Shown here piece after piece: positions 47,906 to 64,000 of a stretch of 64,000 bases of DNA (its first letter is position 1; the number at the start of each line of letters is the position of its first letter). Made by a program: the position numbers and the translations under genes. The notes under the pieces were generated by a model that did no database searches, was not told the origin of the DNA, and was given only the letters and a program-made list of their open reading frames with translations. Source of the DNA: Halobacteroides halobius DSM 5150 (GTDB taxonomy: Bacteria > Bacillota > Halanaerobiia > Halobacteroidales > Halobacteroidaceae); NCBI RefSeq assembly GCF_000328625.1, contig NC_019978.1, forward strand, positions 1,116,001 to 1,180,000, given 5' to 3'.

Positions 47906-49756
47906 GTGAAATTACTAAATAGTATAAAAAATAAGATGATGTTAATTGTTGGTAGCTTAATTTTAGTATTAATAGTAGGTAGTTCTGTGGTTACATATAA
48001 TCAATCACAAAATATCTTAGAGCAGACTATTTTTGATGCAGCAGCTAATAGTGCTAAACAAAATGCGGAAATTATTGAACAGCGATTAATGAGCATTAAA
48101 GGTAAAATAAAAATATTGGCTAATACAGAACAAATTAAGAGTATGAACTGGTCGCAACAAAAAGAATTTTTTATGAAAATAAAACAGGGCCAAGAGTACA
48201 TAAAGAATATATTTGTAGCTGATACTACTGGTGACTATAAGATTACTTCGGGGAAGAATGGTAATATTTCTGATAGAGATTATTTTCAACGAGCAATGAA
48301 GACGGGAGAGACTGTGGTTTCAAATGCGGTAATCAGTAAAGCAACTGGAAAGCCAATTATTGTAATTGGTAGTCCTATTATGCGCAATAATCAAACTATA
48401 GGATTGTTAGCAAGCACAGTTAGTCTTAATCATCTACAAAGTCTTGTTAAGGGCATGAAAATAAATAATTATGGCTATGGTTGGATTATTGATAGTAAGT
48501 TAAGAACAATTGCCCATCCAGATAAAAAGTACTTAGGAAATAAGAAGATATTTGCAGGTAATCAGGAATTAAAAGAAACTGCTTTAAAGATGGTAAAAAA
48601 AGAGTCAGGGGTAGCTCATTATAAATTAGATGGAGTTAAAAAAGAACTTGCATTTGCTAGAGTAGGATTAACTGACTGGTCAGTCGCTATGACTGCTAAG
48701 ACTAATGATGTATTAGCTCCTTTAGATGTTATTCAAAGGAGTAGCTTAATTAATGGAATAATTGCTATTTTAATTGGTTTAATTGTTGCTTATTTTGCTG
48801 CAAAAAAGATTTCTGATCCGCTAGTTCAAGCAGCCAATTTAGCAAATAAGTTTGCTAATAAAGATTTAACAGCTGATAAGATAGAAGTTAGTACTAATGA
48901 TGAAATTGGTGATTTGGCTAATGCTTTAAATAGAATGCGCGATAATTTGCGTGGGATTGTGGGTAGTTTATTAGATGCTGTAGAGGATTTATCTGCTTAT
49001 AGTGAGGAGTTATCAGCATCAGCTCAAGAAGGAAATGCTACAATAGAGACAACTAATCAATTGATTGATGGTGTATCAGCTAGTATTCAACAGATCTCTG
49101 CTAGCACAGAAGAAGTAACTGATTTTGCTCAAGAGTCTAATACCAAAACTGAAGAAGGTAGTAAGAATATTAACCAAACAATAGCTAGTATTAAAGAAAT
49201 TAACCAAACTGTTGACCAAACAGAAGAGGTAATTAATGACTTAGACGATAATTCACAGGAAATAGGTCAAATTATTAATCTGATAACTAATATAGCAGAA
49301 CAGACTAATTTATTAGCTTTAAATGCAGCTATTGAAGCTGCTAGGGCTGGAGAAGCGGGCCAAGGTTTTGCAGTAGTAGCAGATGAAATCCGTGAATTAG
49401 CTGAAGAGACTAATCAAGCAACAGAAAAGATAAGTCGATTGATTACTGATACTCAAAATAAATCAGAGGCTAGTTTAGAAGCAATAAACCAAGTGGCTAG
49501 CATAAGTAAGGATAGTCAAACAATTGCAGAAGAAACAGGTCAGGTATTTGACCAAATTGCTCAAGCAAGTACAGAAACTACAGTTCAGATTAAACAGACT
49601 GCTAGTGCAACAGAAGATGTAGCTAAAAAGAGTGATGAGATTATGGATGCTGCAGATGATATTAGTAATATCTCTGATGAGATTACTAATTCATCACAAG
49701 AATTAGCAACTATGGCTCAAGATTTACGACAATTAATTGATGATTTTGAAGTTTAA
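47906..49756 (+). CDS. Methyl-accepting chemotaxis protein with extracellular dCache sensor
   Basis: The 616-aa receptor has an N-terminal helix ([19 protein letters not shown]), a periplasm-type extracellular dCache-like sensor (about 35-280, with [19 protein letters not shown] and [13 protein letters not shown]), a second membrane helix ([16 protein letters not shown]), HAMP, and the coiled-coil signalling domain. The CheA-binding tip is [20 protein letters not shown] followed by [15 protein letters not shown]. The dCache motif is close to amino-acid-binding sensors. Start is GTG at 47906 after GAGGGGAGAAGAG. Monocistronic, with a palindromic terminator. Confidence 0.94.
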
Positions 49757-49846: not shown

Positions 49847-49911
49847 AAGAGCCACTCCTTTTGATAAGGTATTGTTAACCACAACAAAACCAAAGAAAGG
49901 AGATGGCTCTT
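49847..49911 (+). promoter_or_regulatory. Hairpin hiding the Shine-Dalgarno of transposase A
   Basis: AAGAGCCA (49847-49854) and TCCTTT (49856-49861) pair with TGGCTCTT (49904-49911) and AAAGGA (49896-49901). The Shine-Dalgarno GGAG (49899-49902) is inside the stem, so a transcript reading in from outside would fold and block translation. Confidence 0.65.
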
Positions 49912-51306
49912 ATGGACAATATTATACAACAATTTGAGGAAAATATCAGCATTGAATTAGAAAAAATATTAAAAGAGGTGCTATTAGATTCAGGAAGGGA
50001 TATATCAGAAGTAATAAATTTAATCAAAAGTAATCTTGATGAGTTAGGTAGAAAGCTTTCTAAATGGGTTATAGAAATAGTAGATGAAACAATAAAGGAA
50101 AGTACTAAAAGAAAAAAAGAATGGAAGATAGTAAAAAAGAAACAAAGAAAATTAATGACTAAGTTTGGGGAAGTGAAGTATAAAAGAAGATATTATCGTT
50201 CTAAAAGCAGTGATAAGTATAAATATTTAGCAGAAGAAAGATTAGGAATAAAGAAATATCAAAGGATGGATAGTTCGTTAGAAGCTGAATTAGTAGATTT
50301 AGCATCGGAAAATGCTTATAATAAGGTAGGTAAAGAGGCAGTAGACGATTTAGAAATAAGTGACCAAACAGTGATGAATAAGGTAAGAAAGCTAGGGCAA
50401 ATAGAAAACAATGAATTAAATGAAGTAACAGAAAAACGGGAAGTAAACTGTTTGTATATAGAAGCAGATGAAGATCATGTAGCTTTACAAAATGGGAAGA
50501 AATCAATGCCTAGATTAGTTTATATTCATGAAGGAATAAGTGAAGTTGGAGATAAGAGAGAATTAAAGAATAAATACTATTTTTCTGGAGTATATAAAGA
50601 TTCAGAAGAGCTGTGGTTAGAAGTACTGGATTATATAGATGAAAATTATAAGTTAGAGAAAGTGGAAAAGATCTTTTTACTAGGGGATGGAGCACCATGG
50701 ATTAAAAGCGGCTTAAAGTGGCTTCCTAAGTCTAAATACATATTAGATAGATATCATTTAATTAAGTATTTTAGGAGAGCTAGTAGATATGGAAGAAAAG
50801 AAGTTAAAGAAAAACTGTGGAGTGGATTAGAAGAACCAGACCAAGAGTTAGTTAAAGAAGCTTTTAGTGAATTGATATCTAATGAAGAAAATGAGAAAAG
50901 AAAGAGTTTAATTAGAAAATCACGTCATTATATTTACAATAATTGGGATGGAATAGTGAATTATACCCAGGATAAAGATGCAATTGGTTGTAGTGCTGAG
51001 GGACATATAAGCCATATATTGGCAGATAGATTAAGTTCAAGACCAATGGCTTGGTCAAAGACTGGTGTTGATCAAATGTCTAGATTACAAGCATTTAAGT
51101 TTAATGGTGGAAATAAAGAAAAACTGAAAGAATTGTTTTTGAGAAAGGAAGAAAAAATAAAAAAAGAAGAAACTTTAACAGAGATTGAATCTAAAACGAT
51201 AAATAGTAAGTTAAAAAAGAAGTTTGCTCAATCTAAGAAGAATATACCTAGCATAAATATAGGAAGAAGAACAGGTTTAACTAGAGCTTTAAAGGCAATT
51301 GTTTGA
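49912..51306 (+). CDS. ISLre2-type (UPF0236) transposase A
   Basis: The 464-aa protein is a UPF0236/ISLre2 DDE transposase. Candidate catalytic acids are in IEADEDHVAL, LLGDGAPWIK and CSAEGHISHILADRLSSRPM, with the ILDRYHLIKY segment between them. ATG at 49912 is chosen over ATG 49903 because the Shine-Dalgarno AAAGGAG then has proper spacing and the start aligns with copy B (MDNIIQQF against MDTIIQQF). Copies A and B are clearly related but diverged along their length, so they are different elements of one family. Confidence 0.92.
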   Translation: MDNIIQQFEENISIELEKILKEVLLDSGRDISEVINLIKSNLDELGRKLSKWVIEIVDETIKESTKRKKEWKIVKKKQRKLMTKFGEVKYKRRYYRSKSSDKYKYLAEERLGIKKYQRMDSSLEAELVDLASENAYNKVGKEAVDDLEISDQTVMNKVRKLGQIENNELNEVTEKREVNCLYIEADEDHVALQNGKKSMPRLVYIHEGISEVGDKRELKNKYYFSGVYKDSEELWLEVLDYIDENYKLEKVEKIFLLGDGAPWIKSGLKWLPKSKYILDRYHLIKYFRRASRYGRKEVKEKLWSGLEEPDQELVKEAFSELISNEENEKRKSLIRKSRHYIYNNWDGIVNYTQDKDAIGCSAEGHISHILADRLSSRPMAWSKTGVDQMSRLQAFKFNGGNKEKLKELFLRKEEKIKKEETLTEIESKTINSKLKKKFAQSKKNIPSINIGRRTGLTRALKAIV

Positions 51307-56019: not shown

Positions 56020-56694
56020 GTGGTTGATAATCTTGTAGAAAAGAAATCAAAAATTAGTATTATTGGAGCAGGGGAAGTAGGGACTAATTTATTAAAAATA
56101 TTTTTGAAGATGGATTCTATTCAAGTTGAATATATAGCAGATATAAACAGTGATGCTCCAGGCATGATTTTAGCTCAAAAGGAAGGAATTAAGACAACTA
56201 GAGAAATAACTGAGGCAGTCCAAGTTTCAAATTTAGATTTGATTTTAGAAGTTACCAACTCTAAACAAGTATTAGAAACTATTAAAGAAGAAAAAGCAGC
56301 TAGAACAGAATTGATTAGTGGCGAATGTTCTTATTTGATTTATAATATTATTGAGGAGTATAAAGATTTTGAAGATGATTTATTACATACAGTAACTGAT
56401 CATTTAAATGAAATTTATACTGCGATTGAAAGTGATTCAAAGAGTGTTAATAATTTACTAGCAGAGATTGAAGATGTAACTAAGCATCTTAATATCTTAG
56501 CTATTAATGCCTCAATTGAAGCAGCAAGAGCTGGAAAAGAAGGGCAAGGTTTTTCAGTAGTTGCTAATGAGGTAAAGGATTTATCCTCAGAATCAAGTCA
56601 CATAGTACAAAAGATTGAAGAGATAAATAAAAATATAAGTACTTTAAATGAAAGGATTACTGAAGTGATTGATGAACTTAGTTTTAAGAAATAA
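56020..56694 (+). CDS. Soluble fusion of a Rossmann NAD-binding domain and a minimal chemotaxis signalling domain
   Basis: The 224-aa protein has no membrane helix. Residues about 11-120 form a Rossmann domain of the homoserine-dehydrogenase NAD-binding type (ISIIGAGEVGTNLLKIF, EYIADINSDAPGM, LDLILEVTNS). Residues about 125-224 are a short coiled-coil MCP signalling domain whose hairpin tip LNILAINASIEAARAGKEG, GFSVVANEVKDLS matches the CheA/CheW-binding tip of chemoreceptors. It has no HAMP and few heptads. It could be a cytosolic receptor sensing a dinucleotide or redox state. GTG at 56020 follows AGGGGGGGATTAGAA. A nucleoside hydrolase gene follows after 18 bases. Confidence 0.88.
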   Translation: MVDNLVEKKSKISIIGAGEVGTNLLKIFLKMDSIQVEYIADINSDAPGMILAQKEGIKTTREITEAVQVSNLDLILEVTNSKQVLETIKEEKAARTELISGECSYLIYNIIEEYKDFEDDLLHTVTDHLNEIYTAIESDSKSVNNLLAEIEDVTKHLNILAINASIEAARAGKEGQGFSVVANEVKDLSSESSHIVQKIEEINKNISTLNERITEVIDELSFKK

Positions 56695-57585: not shown

Positions 57586-58540
57586 TCAGTTTAATAAAGG
57601 AGCTAAAAAATGGATACCCAAAAATTATTTTCATTACAGAATAAATATCAAGCGATATTACTTGATAATGGTGGGATGAGGACTTTATGTAATACACTAC
57701 AGGAGGATATTAATAATAAGGTCTTTATTTTGGATAAATATAGAGAAAATGTACTTTATATAGATCGTGAATTGCGCCATGAGAACCAGGAATTTTATTC
57801 TTATTTAGACCAAAGAAGCTTAACTAAAAGAAGAATCATCTTTAGTGAGTACAATGTTTGTATAGAAAGGTTAATTTATATTTGGCGAGAGCAGGAAGTA
57901 ACCGAGGTGCAAGTTAAGCTAAGAAATAGTAATAAGACTTTAGGGATTTTATCTATCTTAGAGAAGAATCCGTTAGAGGAAGATCATTTTTTGGTTATTG
58001 CTCAAGCAGTTTATGCCTTATGTTTAAAATTACATCAAAATGATTTAGTACAAAGCTTGGCCCAAAAATGTAGTAATGAATTAATTGAAGAGTTACTACA
58101 GGGTAAGATTAAAAGCAAGCAAGAGTTAATAAAAAGAGGAGAGTTAGCAGGTTGGGATCTGACAGTGCCCTACCAATTATTTGTGTTACGTTTTAACTCT
58201 AAAAAATCACAAGAGGATGATGGCAAGCGGACCTTATATAAATATGAATTAGAAGAGAAAGTAACTCATAGTTTACACCGGATTATTAGGACTAATATTT
58301 CTACTAAATATATTATTTTCTCTTATGATGGTGATATTTTATTATTGATTCATTATCCACAACAGAGTGAAAAAATTAAAAGTGATATTCAAGATATTTA
58401 TCAACAATTGCAAAATCGTTTTTCGGATTTTTCTTTTTCAATTGGGGCAGGTTGTTTTGCTCAGGATTGTTATCAAATCCCAGAAAGTTACCAACATAGT
58501 GTAAAATAAGTGTAGGTTGTTTTAGTTCAAAAACTAGAAA

Positions 58541-58602: not shown

Positions 58603-59994
58603 ATGGATACAATTATACAACAATTTGGAGAAGAAATTAAGGAAAATACAGAAGAATTTTTAGTAAATATTGCTATGGATAATGATGAAAGCATTTCAGA
58701 TTTTATAAGATCGCTTAGAAAAGATATGGATAAGTTAGGAAGAGAGTTGTGCAAGTATTTAATTGAAAGCTTAGATGAAATGATTATGGAGAGTCCAAAT
58801 CGCAGGGAGAAATGGGAGATAGTTAAGAAGAAAGATAGAACATTAATTACTGAGTTTGGTGAAGTTAAGTTTAATCGGAGATACTATAAATCAAAGTTTA
58901 ATGGTGAATATCAACACCTAGCAGATAAGAAATTAGGTATAGGCAAATATCAAAGAATAGACAGAGGATTAGAAGCAGAGATAGTAGATTTAGCAGCAGA
59001 TGAATCCTATGCTAAAACAGGAACTGAAGTAGTAGATAGCTTAGAAATAAGTAAACAAACAGTAATGAATAAGATAAGAAAATTAGATAAAATAGAAAAT
59101 GATGAATTAAATAAGCCAAGTGAAAAGAAAGAAGTAGAATATTTATATGTAGAGGCTGATGAAGACCATGTTGCCTTGCAAAATGGTAATAATTCAATTC
59201 CTAAATTGGTATATGTACATGAAGGAATTAGTAAAGAACAAGGTAGAAATAAATTAAAAAATAGTTATTGTTTTTCAGGTGTATATAGTAAAGCTGAAGA
59301 TCTTTGGTTAGAAGTAATGGATTATATAGATGCTAATTATAAATTAGATAGTATTAAGCAGATTTATTTAGCAGGAGATGGAGCACTTTGGATTAAAGAG
59401 GGTTTAAAATGGTTGCCTAAAAGCAAACAGATATTGGATAGATATCACTTGAATAAATATGTTCTAAAAGCTACAGCACATGCTGAGAAGCTTAGATTTA
59501 AACTTTGGGAAGGAATTAATAGTTTAGATAGAGCTAAGGTCAAAGAAACTTTTAGTGAGTTAATGTCCAAGGCTGAAAAAGAATCAAAGAAGAGAGCTAT
59601 AAGACGCAGCAGAAGTTATATTTATAATAATTGGGAAGGTATAGTGAATTATTATAAGGATGATAATGCTCTTGGATGCAGTGCAGAAGGTCATGTTAGC
59701 CATATATTGTCTGATAGACTAAGCTCACGACCAATGGGTTGGTCTAAACAGGGAGTAGACCAGATGGCAAGATTGAGAGCTTTTAAGTTTAACGGAGGGA
59801 AATTAAAAGATTTACAAAAGATGATATTAGAAAAGGAAAGAGAGAAATATAAAGAAGATAATTTAGTAAAAATAGAATCAAAAGTAGTGAGTAAAAGATT
59901 AAAGAAAAAATATAAGGGAAAACATGAGAATATACCCAGCATAAGTAAAGGCATAAGAAGAGGTTTGTTTAGAGCTGTTAAGTCACTGGTTTAA
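58603..59994 (+). CDS. ISLre2-type (UPF0236) transposase B
   Basis: The 463-aa transposase matches copy A from end to end with many substitutions: VEADEDHVALQNG, YLAGDGALWIKEG, ILDRYHLNKYV and GCSAEGHVSHILSDRLSSRPMGW carry the likely catalytic acids. The frame is intact and the ends are complete, so the element may still move. Compared with A the two proteins differ at perhaps two of five residues, so this is a separate IS, not a recent copy. Confidence 0.92.
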   Translation: MDTIIQQFGEEIKENTEEFLVNIAMDNDESISDFIRSLRKDMDKLGRELCKYLIESLDEMIMESPNRREKWEIVKKKDRTLITEFGEVKFNRRYYKSKFNGEYQHLADKKLGIGKYQRIDRGLEAEIVDLAADESYAKTGTEVVDSLEISKQTVMNKIRKLDKIENDELNKPSEKKEVEYLYVEADEDHVALQNGNNSIPKLVYVHEGISKEQGRNKLKNSYCFSGVYSKAEDLWLEVMDYIDANYKLDSIKQIYLAGDGALWIKEGLKWLPKSKQILDRYHLNKYVLKATAHAEKLRFKLWEGINSLDRAKVKETFSELMSKAEKESKKRAIRRSRSYIYNNWEGIVNYYKDDNALGCSAEGHVSHILSDRLSSRPMGWSKQGVDQMARLRAFKFNGGKLKDLQKMILEKEREKYKEDNLVKIESKVVSKRLKKKYKGKHENIPSISKGIRRGLFRAVKSLV

Positions 59995-60441
59995 TTTATT
60001 GAAAGAGGAATCTTAAATTTTCACCTACAAAAACTTGACACAATCGTTACCAACAAGGATTATACACCTTAGATTTTTTATCCTATACTAAGCAAGTGAA
60101 TGAGGTATTATTTTATGATGAATTAGGAATTTTACGTTTATTATGGCAATTAGATAGTCCTCAGTTACGCCAGTTTACTGATGAGTTTTTATCTAATTTA
60201 ATTAAATATGATCAAAAAAATGATACCGAATGGGTAGAAGCTTTAGGAACTTTCTTACAAGAAGGGGGTAAAACCCAACAAGCTGCTAAAAAATTGCATA
60301 TCCATCCTAACACAATGAGGTATAGAATTAAAAGAATTCAAGAGATATTAAATTTAGATGTGCATGATTTTGAAACCCAATTAAACTTAAGTATTGCTTA
60401 TAAGATCAATAAATTTATACTTGCTAAGCCAAGTGAAAGGG

Positions 60442-61092
60442 GTGAATAATATCAGCAAGCTAGCTTATCGCTTACAACCTAACGTTAAGTGGCAAAGGAA
60501 AATAGGGATTGGATTAGTCTTATTAACTATAATAATAGCTTATCTAGTCTATAATTTATTATCGACTGGTTTAGCCTTTGCTTGGGTTTTTGGTTTATTG
60601 ATTGGATTTACTCTACAACGATCTAAGATATGTTTTACTGCTGCTTTGCGTGATCCTTTATTATTTGGGATGACAGGTGCTACACGGGCAATAATTTTAT
60701 CATTAATAATTACTACTTTAGGTTACGCAGGAATGCAGTATTATCAGTTGGCCCATGGCTTAAATTTAGTTGGGAAGTTTACTCCTCTGGGTTGGCATAT
60801 TCCACTGGGAGCATTTATCTTTGGGATTGGAGCTGCTATTAGCGGAGGATGTGCTTCAGGGACTTTAGTGCGGTTAGGAGAAGGCTTTCAACTGCAAATA
60901 GTTGTGCTAATAGGTTTTATTATTGGTTCGACCCATGGAGCATATGATGGAGCTTGGTGGTATCATTTATTTAGTGAAACTAAAGTACATTTACCTTCAA
61001 TTATAGGGTGGAAATTAGGAATAGGGTTGCAACTTGTAGTTTTAGTATTATTATATGTAGTAGCTTATTTGTGGGAAAAACATAAATTTTAA
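60442..61092 (+). CDS. YeeE/YedE (TsuA-like) half-size transporter, first copy
   Basis: The roughly 216-aa membrane protein has six or so helices and the cysteine motifs of YeeE/YedE sulfur transporters: RSKICFTAALRDPL near residue 65, then GGCASGTLVRLGEG near 135. Full-length TsuA-type thiosulfate transporters have two such halves in one chain of 330-350 aa; here the second half is a separate gene after tusA. The start is uncertain: GTG at 60442 overlaps the regulator stop but lies inside AAAGGGGTG; a non-standard ATC at 60451 would have that sequence at ideal distance. TusA follows after 11 bases. Confidence 0.78.
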   Translation: MNNISKLAYRLQPNVKWQRKIGIGLVLLTIIIAYLVYNLLSTGLAFAWVFGLLIGFTLQRSKICFTAALRDPLLFGMTGATRAIILSLIITTLGYAGMQYYQLAHGLNLVGKFTPLGWHIPLGAFIFGIGAAISGGCASGTLVRLGEGFQLQIVVLIGFIIGSTHGAYDGAWWYHLFSETKVHLPSIIGWKLGIGLQLVVLVLLYVVAYLWEKHKF

Positions 61093-61103
61093 GGAGGATA
61101 TCT

Positions 61104-61325
61104 ATGAAGAAGTTAGATTGTATTGGTGAACCTTGTCCTCTCCCGTTAATGAAAGCAGAAAAAAAGATTAAGGAATTAAAAATAGGAGAAGAATTATGTA
61201 TTGAGATAGATCATACTTGTGCTACGACTAATGTTCCCGAATGGGCTAGAAAGAAAGGCTATCAAGTAGAAATTAAAGAGGTGGTCTTTGGTGAATGGCA
61301 AATTAGAATCACCAAAGCAAAATAA
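61104..61325 (+). CDS. tusA: TusA/SirA-like sulfur carrier protein
   Basis: The 73-aa protein has the TusA signature CIGEPCPLPLMKAEKKI with the persulfide-bearing Cys11 in CPLP, a GEELCIEIDHTCATTNVPEWA middle, and a C-terminal beta strand. It carries sulfane sulfur (or selenium) between proteins in the cytoplasm. YeeE/YedE genes usually have such a partner (TsuB-like), accepting thiosulfate sulfur on the inside. ATG follows AAGGAGGATATCT. The next gene starts within its last codons. Confidence 0.9.
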   Translation: MKKLDCIGEPCPLPLMKAEKKIKELKIGEELCIEIDHTCATTNVPEWARKKGYQVEIKEVVFGEWQIRITKAK

Positions 61326-61839
61326 TGATTGGTGGGTAAAGATAACAAGTAGAGTATTTGAGAGACCTTGGCCCTATTGGGTAGGAGGACTATTATTAGC
61401 TATATTTAATATTATATATATTCTTTTAACTGGTCAGTATTGGGCAATTACAACTGGTTTTGCTCGTTGTGGGGCTTGGTTTTTACAGTTGTGTGGATTA
61501 AATGTAAAAGATTGGGCTGTATGGGATTATTATAGTTATATTCCTCCTTTATTAGACCGGTATACTTATTCTAATTTAGGAATAATAACAGGTAGTTTAA
61601 TAGCTATTTTATTGGCCCGTAAATTCAAATTTAAGCGAGTCAAAAATAAAAAGCAGCTTATAGTAGGGTTAGTTGGTGGTTGGTTGATGGGTTATGGGGC
61701 TCGAGTAGCTATTGGTTGTAATATTGGAGGCTTATATAGTGCTATTTCTTCTTTAGCAATCAATGGATGGTTGTATCTAATATTTTGTATATTAGGGATT
61801 TATTGTGGTAGTAAACTTTTAAGTAAGTGGTTTATCTAG
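61291..61839 (+). CDS. YeeE/YedE (TsuA-like) half-size transporter, second copy
   Basis: The 182-aa membrane protein has four or five helices and the matching second-half motifs: FARCGAWFLQLCGL near residue 57, and GYGARVAIGCNIGGLYSA near 135. It should combine with the first half-size protein. GTG at 61291 (or TTG 61288) is chosen because GAGGTGG ends 6 bases upstream; it overlaps tusA by 35 bases in another frame, which implies tight translational coupling. Confidence 0.8.
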   Translation: MNGKLESPKQNNDWWVKITSRVFERPWPYWVGGLLLAIFNIIYILLTGQYWAITTGFARCGAWFLQLCGLNVKDWAVWDYYSYIPPLLDRYTYSNLGIITGSLIAILLARKFKFKRVKNKKQLIVGLVGGWLMGYGARVAIGCNIGGLYSAISSLAINGWLYLIFCILGIYCGSKLLSKWFI

Positions 61840-62774: not shown

Positions 62775-64000
62775 TTGTTATCAGAAGAAGTAGTAAGCAA
62801 GATGAATGAAGTTATTGATGATTGTATGGGAGATGCTCCACCTGCTTGTGTAGCAACTTGTCCTTTACATATTGATGCTAAAGGATATGTTGATCTAATT
62901 GGAAAAGGAGAGTATAAGCAAGCTCTTGAATTAATTAGAGACACAACACCTTTTCCAGGAATTTTAGGTCGAGTTTGTGCTCATCCTTGTGAAGAAGAGT
63001 GCAAGCGACAAGATGTGGAGGCGGCTTTATCAATTAAAAATTTAAAAAGATTTGTTGCAGATCATGATAATCCAAGCAATTGGGATTTAACTACTGCTGC
63101 TAAGACAGGGAAAAGTGTAGCAGTTATTGGTGCTGGTCCAGCTGGTGCTTTGGCAGCTTATGACTTACGTAAGAGTGGTCACCAGGTAACTATTTATGAA
63201 AAGCTACCAGTAGTTGGTGGGATGTTACGAGTCGGTATTCCAGCTTATAGACTACCACATGAAGTAATTGACCAAGAGTATAGTATTTTAGAAGACTTAG
63301 GGGTTGAGATTAAATTAAATACTGAAGTAGGTGTAGATCTACCTTTTGAAAAATTAGAAGCAGATTATGATGCAGTATTTATAGCGATTGGTGCTCATGA
63401 GAGTATTATGCTTCCTTTAGATGGTGCTGATTTAGATGGTGTTAAGCCAGGTGTTGATTTACTAAAAAAGGCTGGCTTAGAAAATTATGATGAAATAGAT
63501 TTAGGTGAGAAAGTGACTGTTATTGGTGGCGGTAATGTAGCTATGGATGTAGCTCGAACTGCTTGGAGAACAGGAGCTAAAGAGGTAGAAATAGTTTGTT
63601 TAGAACAAAGAGAAGAAATGCCAGCCCACGAATGGGAAGTTATAGATGCAGAAGAAGAAGGTATTGAAGTGCATTGTGGTTGGGGACCAGAAAAGATTAA
63701 TGGTGATGATAAAGTTGAATCTATCACATTTAAGAAATGTGTTTCTGTTTTTGATGATGATGGTAATTTTAATCCAACTTATGATCAAGATAATTTAAAA
63801 GAGATTAAAACTGATAATGTAATCTTTGCTATTGGTCAGAGTGCTCAATCTGAATTTTTAGAAGAATCTGCTATTGAATTGAATCGTGGTGGTAAAGTTG
63901 ATACTGAGGCTATTACTTTGCAAACAGATAAGGAGCATGTATTTGCTGGTGGAGATGTTGCTGGTAGGCCATTACTAGCTATTGAGGCTATGGCTCATGG
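62775..64000 (+). CDS. GltD-like NAD(P)-dependent iron-sulfur flavoprotein (N-terminal part)
   Basis: The frame runs from TTG at 62775 (AAAGGAAGTG upstream) to the window end, 408 codons without a stop. The N-terminus has the cluster cysteines CVATCPLHIDAKGYVDLI, then CAHPCEEECKR. The FAD site is VIGAGPAGALAAYDLRKSG and the NAD(P) site is IGGGNVAMDVARTA. AGGDVAGRPLLAIEAMAHG near the end is the second FAD motif. This is the architecture of the glutamate synthase small subunit family, shared with NfnB and other redox subunits. With the rest missing, the partner and reaction stay open. Confidence 0.88.
   Translation, partial: MLSEEVVSKMNEVIDDCMGDAPPACVATCPLHIDAKGYVDLIGKGEYKQALELIRDTTPFPGILGRVCAHPCEEECKRQDVEAALSIKNLKRFVADHDNPSNWDLTTAAKTGKSVAVIGAGPAGALAAYDLRKSGHQVTIYEKLPVVGGMLRVGIPAYRLPHEVIDQEYSILEDLGVEIKLNTEVGVDLPFEKLEADYDAVFIAIGAHESIMLPLDGADLDGVKPGVDLLKKAGLENYDEIDLGEKVTVIGGGNVAMDVARTAWRTGAKEVEIVCLEQREEMPAHEWEVIDAEEEGIEVHCGWGPEKINGDDKVESITFKKCVSVFDDDGNFNPTYDQDNLKEIKTDNVIFAIGQSAQSEFLEESAIELNRGGKVDTEAITLQTDKEHVFAGGDVAGRPLLAIEAMAH

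Follow-up and report, generated by a model that had tools for sequence, protein, structure and literature searches.

A soluble Rossmann-MCP protein with a very short signalling hairpin in Halobacteroides halobius, a candidate reader of intracellular metabolic state

Results

The locus

We analysed a window of 64,000 nucleotides (the whole stretch of DNA, positions 1,116,001 to 1,180,000 of contig NC_019978.1) from Halobacteroides halobius DSM 5150, whose genome consists of one contig, 2,649,255 bases long. One of its genes (Table 1) encodes a protein in which an N-terminal Rossmann part is followed by an MCP hairpin. The Pfam family PF00015 (MCPsignal) covers residues 131-219 [E 3.6e-21, 76.2 bits, cut-off 34.6], and two heptad positions are hydrophobic in both hairpin arms. 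The tip between the arms is the region that contacts CheA and CheW in canonical receptors. No membrane helix was found in the window protein, the highest mean over 19 residues on the Kyte-Doolittle scale being 1.09, and HAMP is absent from its Pfam matches up to E 0.1. Thus, a prior reading made from the sequence alone, which had described a soluble fusion of a Rossmann fold with an MCP hairpin and had noted that neither a membrane helix nor HAMP is present, is borne out by the MCPsignal score, by the lack of a membrane-like stretch and by the Rossmann profile match described below. AlphaFold runs on the window sequence alone, with no alignment, gave pLDDT values of 65 and 50 and were not used for fold searches.

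A nucleoside hydrolase gene (PF01156) begins 18 bases downstream, and the two genes could plausibly be cotranscribed in this genome. The gene for a canonical dCache-HAMP-MCP receptor of 616 aa lies 6 kb upstream (47906-49756). On either side of the Rossmann-MCP gene lie two UPF0236-type transposase genes of the same kind (49903-51306 and 58603-59994), about 7 kb apart. The second appears to be inserted in a CdaR/PucR-type regulator gene with GGDEF_2 and PucR HTH parts, which it would split (57610-58509 and 60096-60449), and a short direct repeat, gttaccaac, seen by eye, flanks the insert. Further along, a sulphur-transport protein (PF04143) is encoded by two half-length genes (60394-61092 and 61288-61839).

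Table 1. The Rossmann-MCP gene and its parts, in window positions; short type and long type are the two forms of Rossmann-MCP protein described in the text.
Feature	Position	Strand	Basis and remarks
Rossmann-MCP gene	56020..56694	+	GTG start, 224 aa; open reading frame, Pfam, orthologues
Rossmann (NAD-binding type) sensor domain, about residues 9-104	56044..56331	+	Borders estimated from the alignment and the start of the MCP part
GxGxxG dinucleotide-binding motif GAGEVG, residues 16-21	56065..56082	+	Three glycines invariant in 9/9 short-type proteins
Asp41, end of strand 2	56140..56142	+	Aspartate in 9/9 short-type and 46/46 long-type MCP proteins
Linker into hairpin, about residues 105-120	56332..56379	+	Alignment A2; probably helical
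MCP hairpin N-arm, about residues 121-172	56380..56535	+	Pfam match 131-219; hydrophobics at two heptad positions
MCP tip NILAINASIEAARAGKEGQGFSVVANEVK, residues 158-186	56491..56577	+	20/50 positions of residues 141-190 invariant in the nine short-type proteins
MCP hairpin C-arm, up to the C-terminus	56548..56691	+	51 residues beyond the position matching Tsr 391

Short and long Rossmann-MCP proteins

Nearly full-length matches to the window protein occur in six of the eight genomes of its family, its own counted, and a search with the Rossmann part over 59 genomes of the class added three of the five genomes of the other family in the order. The same build is therefore present in 9 of the 13 genomes searched in the order (own genome counted), the orthologue being missing from G003, G007, G054 and G055. 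These nine proteins, which we call the short type, measure 216-238 aa; the other eight share 45-57% identity with the window protein. The nine genomes represent eight genera and two families, and the matches are free of internal stops. A longer form is found in eight genomes of the other families of the class, seven of the proteins having 280-285 aa and the eighth (L249) reading in two frames. Weak matches to the Rossmann query at three more loci (L054, L055, L059) look like ordinary enzymes.

To describe the wider family we used a profile of 17 family rows (A2), which matched 124 of 299 relatives at E <1e-6. Mostly for the stronger matches, 77 loci were fetched, 60 outside the class and 17 within it, the remainder of the 124 genomes being left out; a Rossmann reading frame is present in every fetched locus (77/77). 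With the window protein this makes 78 proteins: 9 short MCPs, 46 long MCPs, 15 sigma-54 activators (called by a motif test), one protein with a SpoIIE and HATPase output, and seven others. According to Pfam, run on ten representatives of the set, the last group includes a PAS-HTH protein (L223), an HD protein (L221) and a protein with a sigma-54 domain (L219); L222 resembles L223, two members (L231, L232) are short pieces, and the two-frame gene L249 completes the group. The SpoIIE+HATPase protein (L241) comes from the same family as the window genome, and in alignment A2 it too has the linker that leads into the hairpin of the window protein. Because the Rossmann module heads long MCPs, sigma-54 activators, a SpoIIE phosphatase and HD proteins, it behaves as an exchangeable intracellular sensor. 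At its locus (L241:6879-10188), the gene for the Rossmann sensor with SpoIIE phosphatase and HATPase stands in a row with genes for HD and STAS proteins. Eight Rossmann-MCP proteins (L192, L194, L198, L203, L206, L212, L214, L229) are longer, at about 490 aa, because some 200 additional residues separate their two parts, and in L192, the one scanned, this stretch matches no Pfam family at E 0.01. The A2 profile matched nothing at E 0.1 in 80 viral-contig loci fetched with alignment A1 or in L001 and L002; a plasmid search by tblastn covered 4215 records.

In a tree of the MCP part, a branch supported at 99/99 sets the 46 long-type rows apart from a group that unites the nine short-type rows and 30 of the 34 other MCPs. 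A separate origin of the short and long fusions is tempting but not shown: the AU test on the MCP part does not reject short and long as one clade (p 0.086), and on the Rossmann part it is neutral when L241, L249 and L221 are included (p 0.495). An initial Rossmann-part test that did reject one clade (p 2.5e-9) used an unfair grouping, which forced these three proteins out. The Rossmann trees leave out 4 of the 78 rows, which lack the regex motif. The trees, of about 100 columns, do not decide between the trimming of a long-type protein and a second fusion as the route to the short type. In the Rossmann tree L241 nests within the short type, which suggests that the output was swapped within the order; the short type as one clade is not rejected (p 0.215).

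The Rossmann domain and its cofactor motif

As a single sequence, the window protein reaches the cut-off of no curated Rossmann family in Pfam or NCBIfam. Its best Rossmann score in Pfam is CoA_binding [18.4 bits, cut-off 22.3], with NAD_binding_3 at 17.7 bits [cut-off 24]. In NCBIfam the N-terminal part matches the acetaldehyde dehydrogenase PRK08300 [E 1.2e-8, 34.6 bits against a cut-off of 166] and, also below cut-off, an inositol dehydrogenase and, weakly, Rex [E 0.0044]. Some relatives do exceed a Pfam cut-off of 24: L241 with NAD_binding_3 (26.5), and L192 and L186 with GFO_IDH_MocA (33.1 and 26.7). The relationship to Rossmann enzymes is beyond chance because the A2 profile reaches solved structures, namely acetaldehyde dehydrogenases [best E 1.1e-6] and Gfo/Idh/MocA enzymes [E about 4e-4 to 6e-4]. 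By these profile matches both groups are nearer than homoserine dehydrogenase, after which the domain had originally been labelled. The C-terminal catalytic domain of either group is absent from the window protein, where the MCP hairpin comes directly after the Rossmann part.

All three glycines of GxGxxG (G16, G18, G21) and the acid of strand 2 (D41) are invariant in the nine short-type proteins, so that the loss of NAD-binding glycines, named beforehand as a result that would speak against the fusion, did not occur. Other invariant residues include E77-V78-T79, and in total 16 of 96 positions are invariant in the Rossmann part against 20 of 50 around the tip (residues 141-190). Among the 46 long-type MCP proteins, D41 is present in 46 and G16 in 43 of the 44 rows that reach the position; G16S in L207 is the sole glycine exception in the rows reaching it, and two rows are without their start. 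The motif is retained under other outputs as well: the 15 sigma-54 proteins have G16 and G18 in 15, G21 in 14 and D41 in 13, and the seven other-output proteins have G16 and D41 in all seven and G18 and G21 in six. In Gfo/Idh/MocA enzymes an aspartate after strand 2 favours NAD over NADP, and by analogy we take Asp41 to be an acidic residue of the NAD type. The best reading of these motifs and matches is that the N-terminal half is a Rossmann fold of the NAD(P)-binding type that may bind a dinucleotide, and sensing of NAD(H) is compatible with them.

A very short hairpin with a conserved tip

We aligned the tip by positions to which we assign Tsr numbers (N381, E385, R388, 391 and F396). In the window protein 51 residues follow the position that corresponds to Tsr 391. 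By a count that could be off by one, the short type as a whole has 50-68 residues there and the long type 77-89, with a median of 86. The range is 113-273 in the 12 ordinary MCPs of the same genome that could be read. The long-type median fits 12 heptads per arm, that is, 24H, and the short type is therefore about 14H; the hairpin of the window protein has about seven heptads per arm, which agrees with the very short hairpin that had been claimed for it. The methylation region of MCPs lies about 100 residues from the tip and, with 51 residues available, cannot be present. The window protein is thus an MCP-domain protein and not a methyl-accepting one. In the sections of the MiST 3.0 paper used here, the named classes of chemoreceptor run from 24H, the shortest, to 64H (PMC6943060); these have at least 12 heptads per arm, against about seven in the C-arm of the window protein.

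All four tip residues (N381, E385, R388 and F396 in Tsr) are found in the window protein with normal spacing, and the CheA/CheW contact tip reported for it is indeed intact (Asn, Glu, Arg and Gly-Phe). Its orthologues are more varied. E385 is kept in 9/9 short-type proteins and R388 in 6/9, the arginine being replaced by His in two and Lys in one, and a three-residue insertion in the turn occurs in two of nine; overall 5/9 vary, and the Gln-Thr pair that precedes the tip is changed in all nine. R388 and the tip spacing are unchanged in 46/46 proteins of the long type. Tip loss in orthologues, which had been offered as a refutation, is thus seen in part: five of the nine short-type proteins vary at the tip, and the window protein itself keeps both arginine and spacing.

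The turn at the hairpin tip is normally the most conserved part of an MCP. Ordinary MCPs of the same genome (L256, L257, L259, L260, L263 and L265) carry insertions of 4, 5 or 11 residues at this turn. These are half of the 12 that could be read, and among 30 high-scoring MCPs from six relatives there is no such case (0 of 30), a comparison in which 2 of the 14 own-genome loci went unread by the pattern and the sample of relatives is biased to high scorers. We had considered tip insertion as a sign of lost function, and withdrew the idea in view of these six receptors, with their 4-11 residue insertions.

Gene neighbourhoods

The nucleoside hydrolase gene had been taken as a clue to a dinucleotide or base-related signal. 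We found no blastp match to it at E 1e-6 in 17 homologue loci of the class, eight of them with the same protein type, and on this ground we reject it as a clue; it lends no support to a nucleoside signal. No neighbour family is common to more than four of the eight short-type loci. By blastp, the neighbour at 62775-64000 has matches in three homologue loci (31-32%), and the upstream dCache receptor matches MCPs beside the orthologue in L233 (44-52%).

Relatives with non-MCP outputs are worth examining for their neighbours, since regulators of this kind often control adjacent genes. Outside the class, 8 of the 21 non-MCP loci have class I fumarase genes next to them (NCBIfam names the subunits in L201, and the other seven cluster with it by BLAST), and none was found in the 39 long-MCP loci outside the class, in flanks of roughly 3 kb. 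A malic-enzyme gene is present as well at three of the fumarase loci (L218, L222, L223), by clustering in all three and by name in L222 and L223. At some non-MCP loci the neighbours are genes for succinate dehydrogenase, succinyl-CoA ligase, acyl-CoA ligase, or phosphate butyryltransferase and amino-acid dehydrogenase. These neighbours of sister proteins point to fumarase and C4/propionate metabolism, a setting that would suit a redox signal or a C4/propionate metabolite alike.

Association with chemotaxis genes

The window genome has one CheA, two CheW, flagellin matches and 15 MCP frames; the protein thus combines the lack of a membrane segment with CheA and CheW in the cell, as is expected of a soluble chemoreceptor. 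CheW is present in 253 of the 299 relatives and in 49 of the 49 genomes with a read Rossmann-MCP protein [P 1.2e-4 by random draw, kinship ignored], including all nine short-type genomes. G014, the genome with the two-frame gene, was kept out of the 49 and has CheW too; G223, with a PAS/sigma-54 output, is missing from the CheW list. Outside the class, 3 of 39 long-type loci lie beside chemotaxis or flagellar genes: CheB adjoins the gene in L188 and L193, and in L207 one flank holds FlgK, FliS and FlaG, the opposite flank a response regulator, CheR and CheD. No che gene was seen beside the short-type genes, whose neighbours were clustered and in part annotated.

Discussion

The best reading of the window protein retains the central idea of the sequence-only reading, a soluble chemosensory protein that reads an intracellular dinucleotide or metabolite. 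We give about an even chance to the full proposal, that it is a soluble chemoreceptor-like transducer through which NAD(H), or a metabolite bound in the same manner, acts on the single CheA of the cell. The Rossmann domain, freed of a catalytic domain, would be the intracellular sensor, with NAD(H) or a metabolite in the same pocket as its ligand, and a helix would join it to the miniature hairpin. Binding of the ligand, or a change in its redox state, may alter the packing of a Rossmann dimer and of the helical bundle below it; the tip would relay this change through CheW to CheA, and metabolic state could thereby bias swimming. The proposal builds on a two-domain protein that conserves its cofactor motif and most of its tip and shares its sensor with other outputs, in a cell with chemotaxis genes and flagellins. 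Entry into the same array as other receptors is questionable, because the hairpin is so much shorter than those of the 12 readable receptors of the genome.

A close variant keeps the chemoreceptor-like role and supposes that there is no cofactor, or one that merely belongs to the fixed structure, the signal being a small metabolite such as a C4-dicarboxylate, an aldehyde or an acyl-CoA in the Rossmann cleft. The fumarase neighbours of the non-MCP relatives, three of them with malic enzyme, would favour it, and the succinate dehydrogenase, succinyl-CoA ligase, phosphate butyryltransferase and amino-acid dehydrogenase neighbours fit a metabolite as well as they fit redox. However, conservation within the domain is among its highest at the dinucleotide motif and at the strand-2 aspartate, which argues that the cofactor itself is needed, and we regard this variant as rather unlikely.

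The variation at the tip and the changed Gln-Thr pair could also mean that the short type has changed its partner. The hairpin would then no longer feed CheA, and would serve for dimerisation or for docking to a different partner, or would cap and compete with normal receptors. A hairpin below the published classes in length is in keeping with such a role, as are the three tip arginines replaced by His or Lys, the two turn insertions, and the case, in one genome of the same family, of the same sensor joined to SpoIIE and HATPase in a gene cluster that also encodes HD and STAS proteins. Yet the tip is the best conserved part of the short type, E385 is universal in it, insertions in ordinary MCPs of the same genome indicate that they need not mean loss, and CheW occurs in all nine genomes; a role apart from CheA seems to us improbable. 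Least credible, and in our view hardly worth entertaining, is that a larger receptor or dehydrogenase has been truncated or is decaying here. The short hairpin might suggest this, as might the lack of a long-type copy in the same genome, where three weak matches (20-30 bits, frames of 374-438 aa) are all that the profile gives besides the window gene. Against it, the full-length build persists across genera and families with both halves constrained and no internal stops, and the truncated leftover that had been named as a refuting result did not appear.

For the module as a whole we put forward a broader speculation, possible but on balance doubtful: across the phylum it may be a general sensor, hitherto undescribed, of the NAD(H) redox state inside cells or of C4/propionate flux, joined to chemotaxis, sigma-54, partner-switching and HD outputs, with the version in this order driving energy taxis through the smallest chemoreceptor hairpin known. 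A sensing part that resembles the NAD-binding portion of metabolic enzymes, on a receptor free of membrane segments, suggests that swimming may be steered by the metabolic state inside the cell. If true, there would be a direct path from intracellular cofactor state to the flagellar motor, one sensor module would be named for testing over four kinds of output, and a chemoreceptor of about 14 heptads would be at hand for measuring how short a receptor can be and still control the kinase.

Comparison with known systems

No description of a Rossmann-headed chemoreceptor was found in the literature searched, which is not proof of absence. In the parts of the sources used here, the soluble chemoreceptors TlpT of Rhodobacter sphaeroides and TlpD of Helicobacter pylori resemble the window protein in that they have an MCP hairpin but no membrane segments and that CheA and CheW are present in the cell; TlpT, with 567 aa and a classical MCP coiled coil (PMC3964821), is unlike the window protein of 224 aa. 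With the 24H chemoreceptors, as far as they are covered in the sections cited (PMC6943060), the MCP tip is held in common, and the long-type Rossmann-MCPs fit this class, whereas the window protein and its eight short orthologues differ from it in having 50-68 residues beyond the tip.

On the side of the sensor, the GxGxxG glycines are shared with the N-terminal Rossmann domain of acylating acetaldehyde dehydrogenase, the best profile match, and with the Gfo/Idh/MocA oxidoreductases, whose strand-2 aspartate that of the window protein presumably resembles; the window protein runs straight into its hairpin and has the catalytic domain of neither. Rex, the NADH-sensing repressor, is a weak NCBIfam match to the N-terminal part. 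In Rex, too, the Rossmann domain serves signalling and not catalysis, with a DNA-binding output and a domain order unlike that of the window protein. The novelty of the window protein thus rests on its sensor module and on the length of its hairpin.
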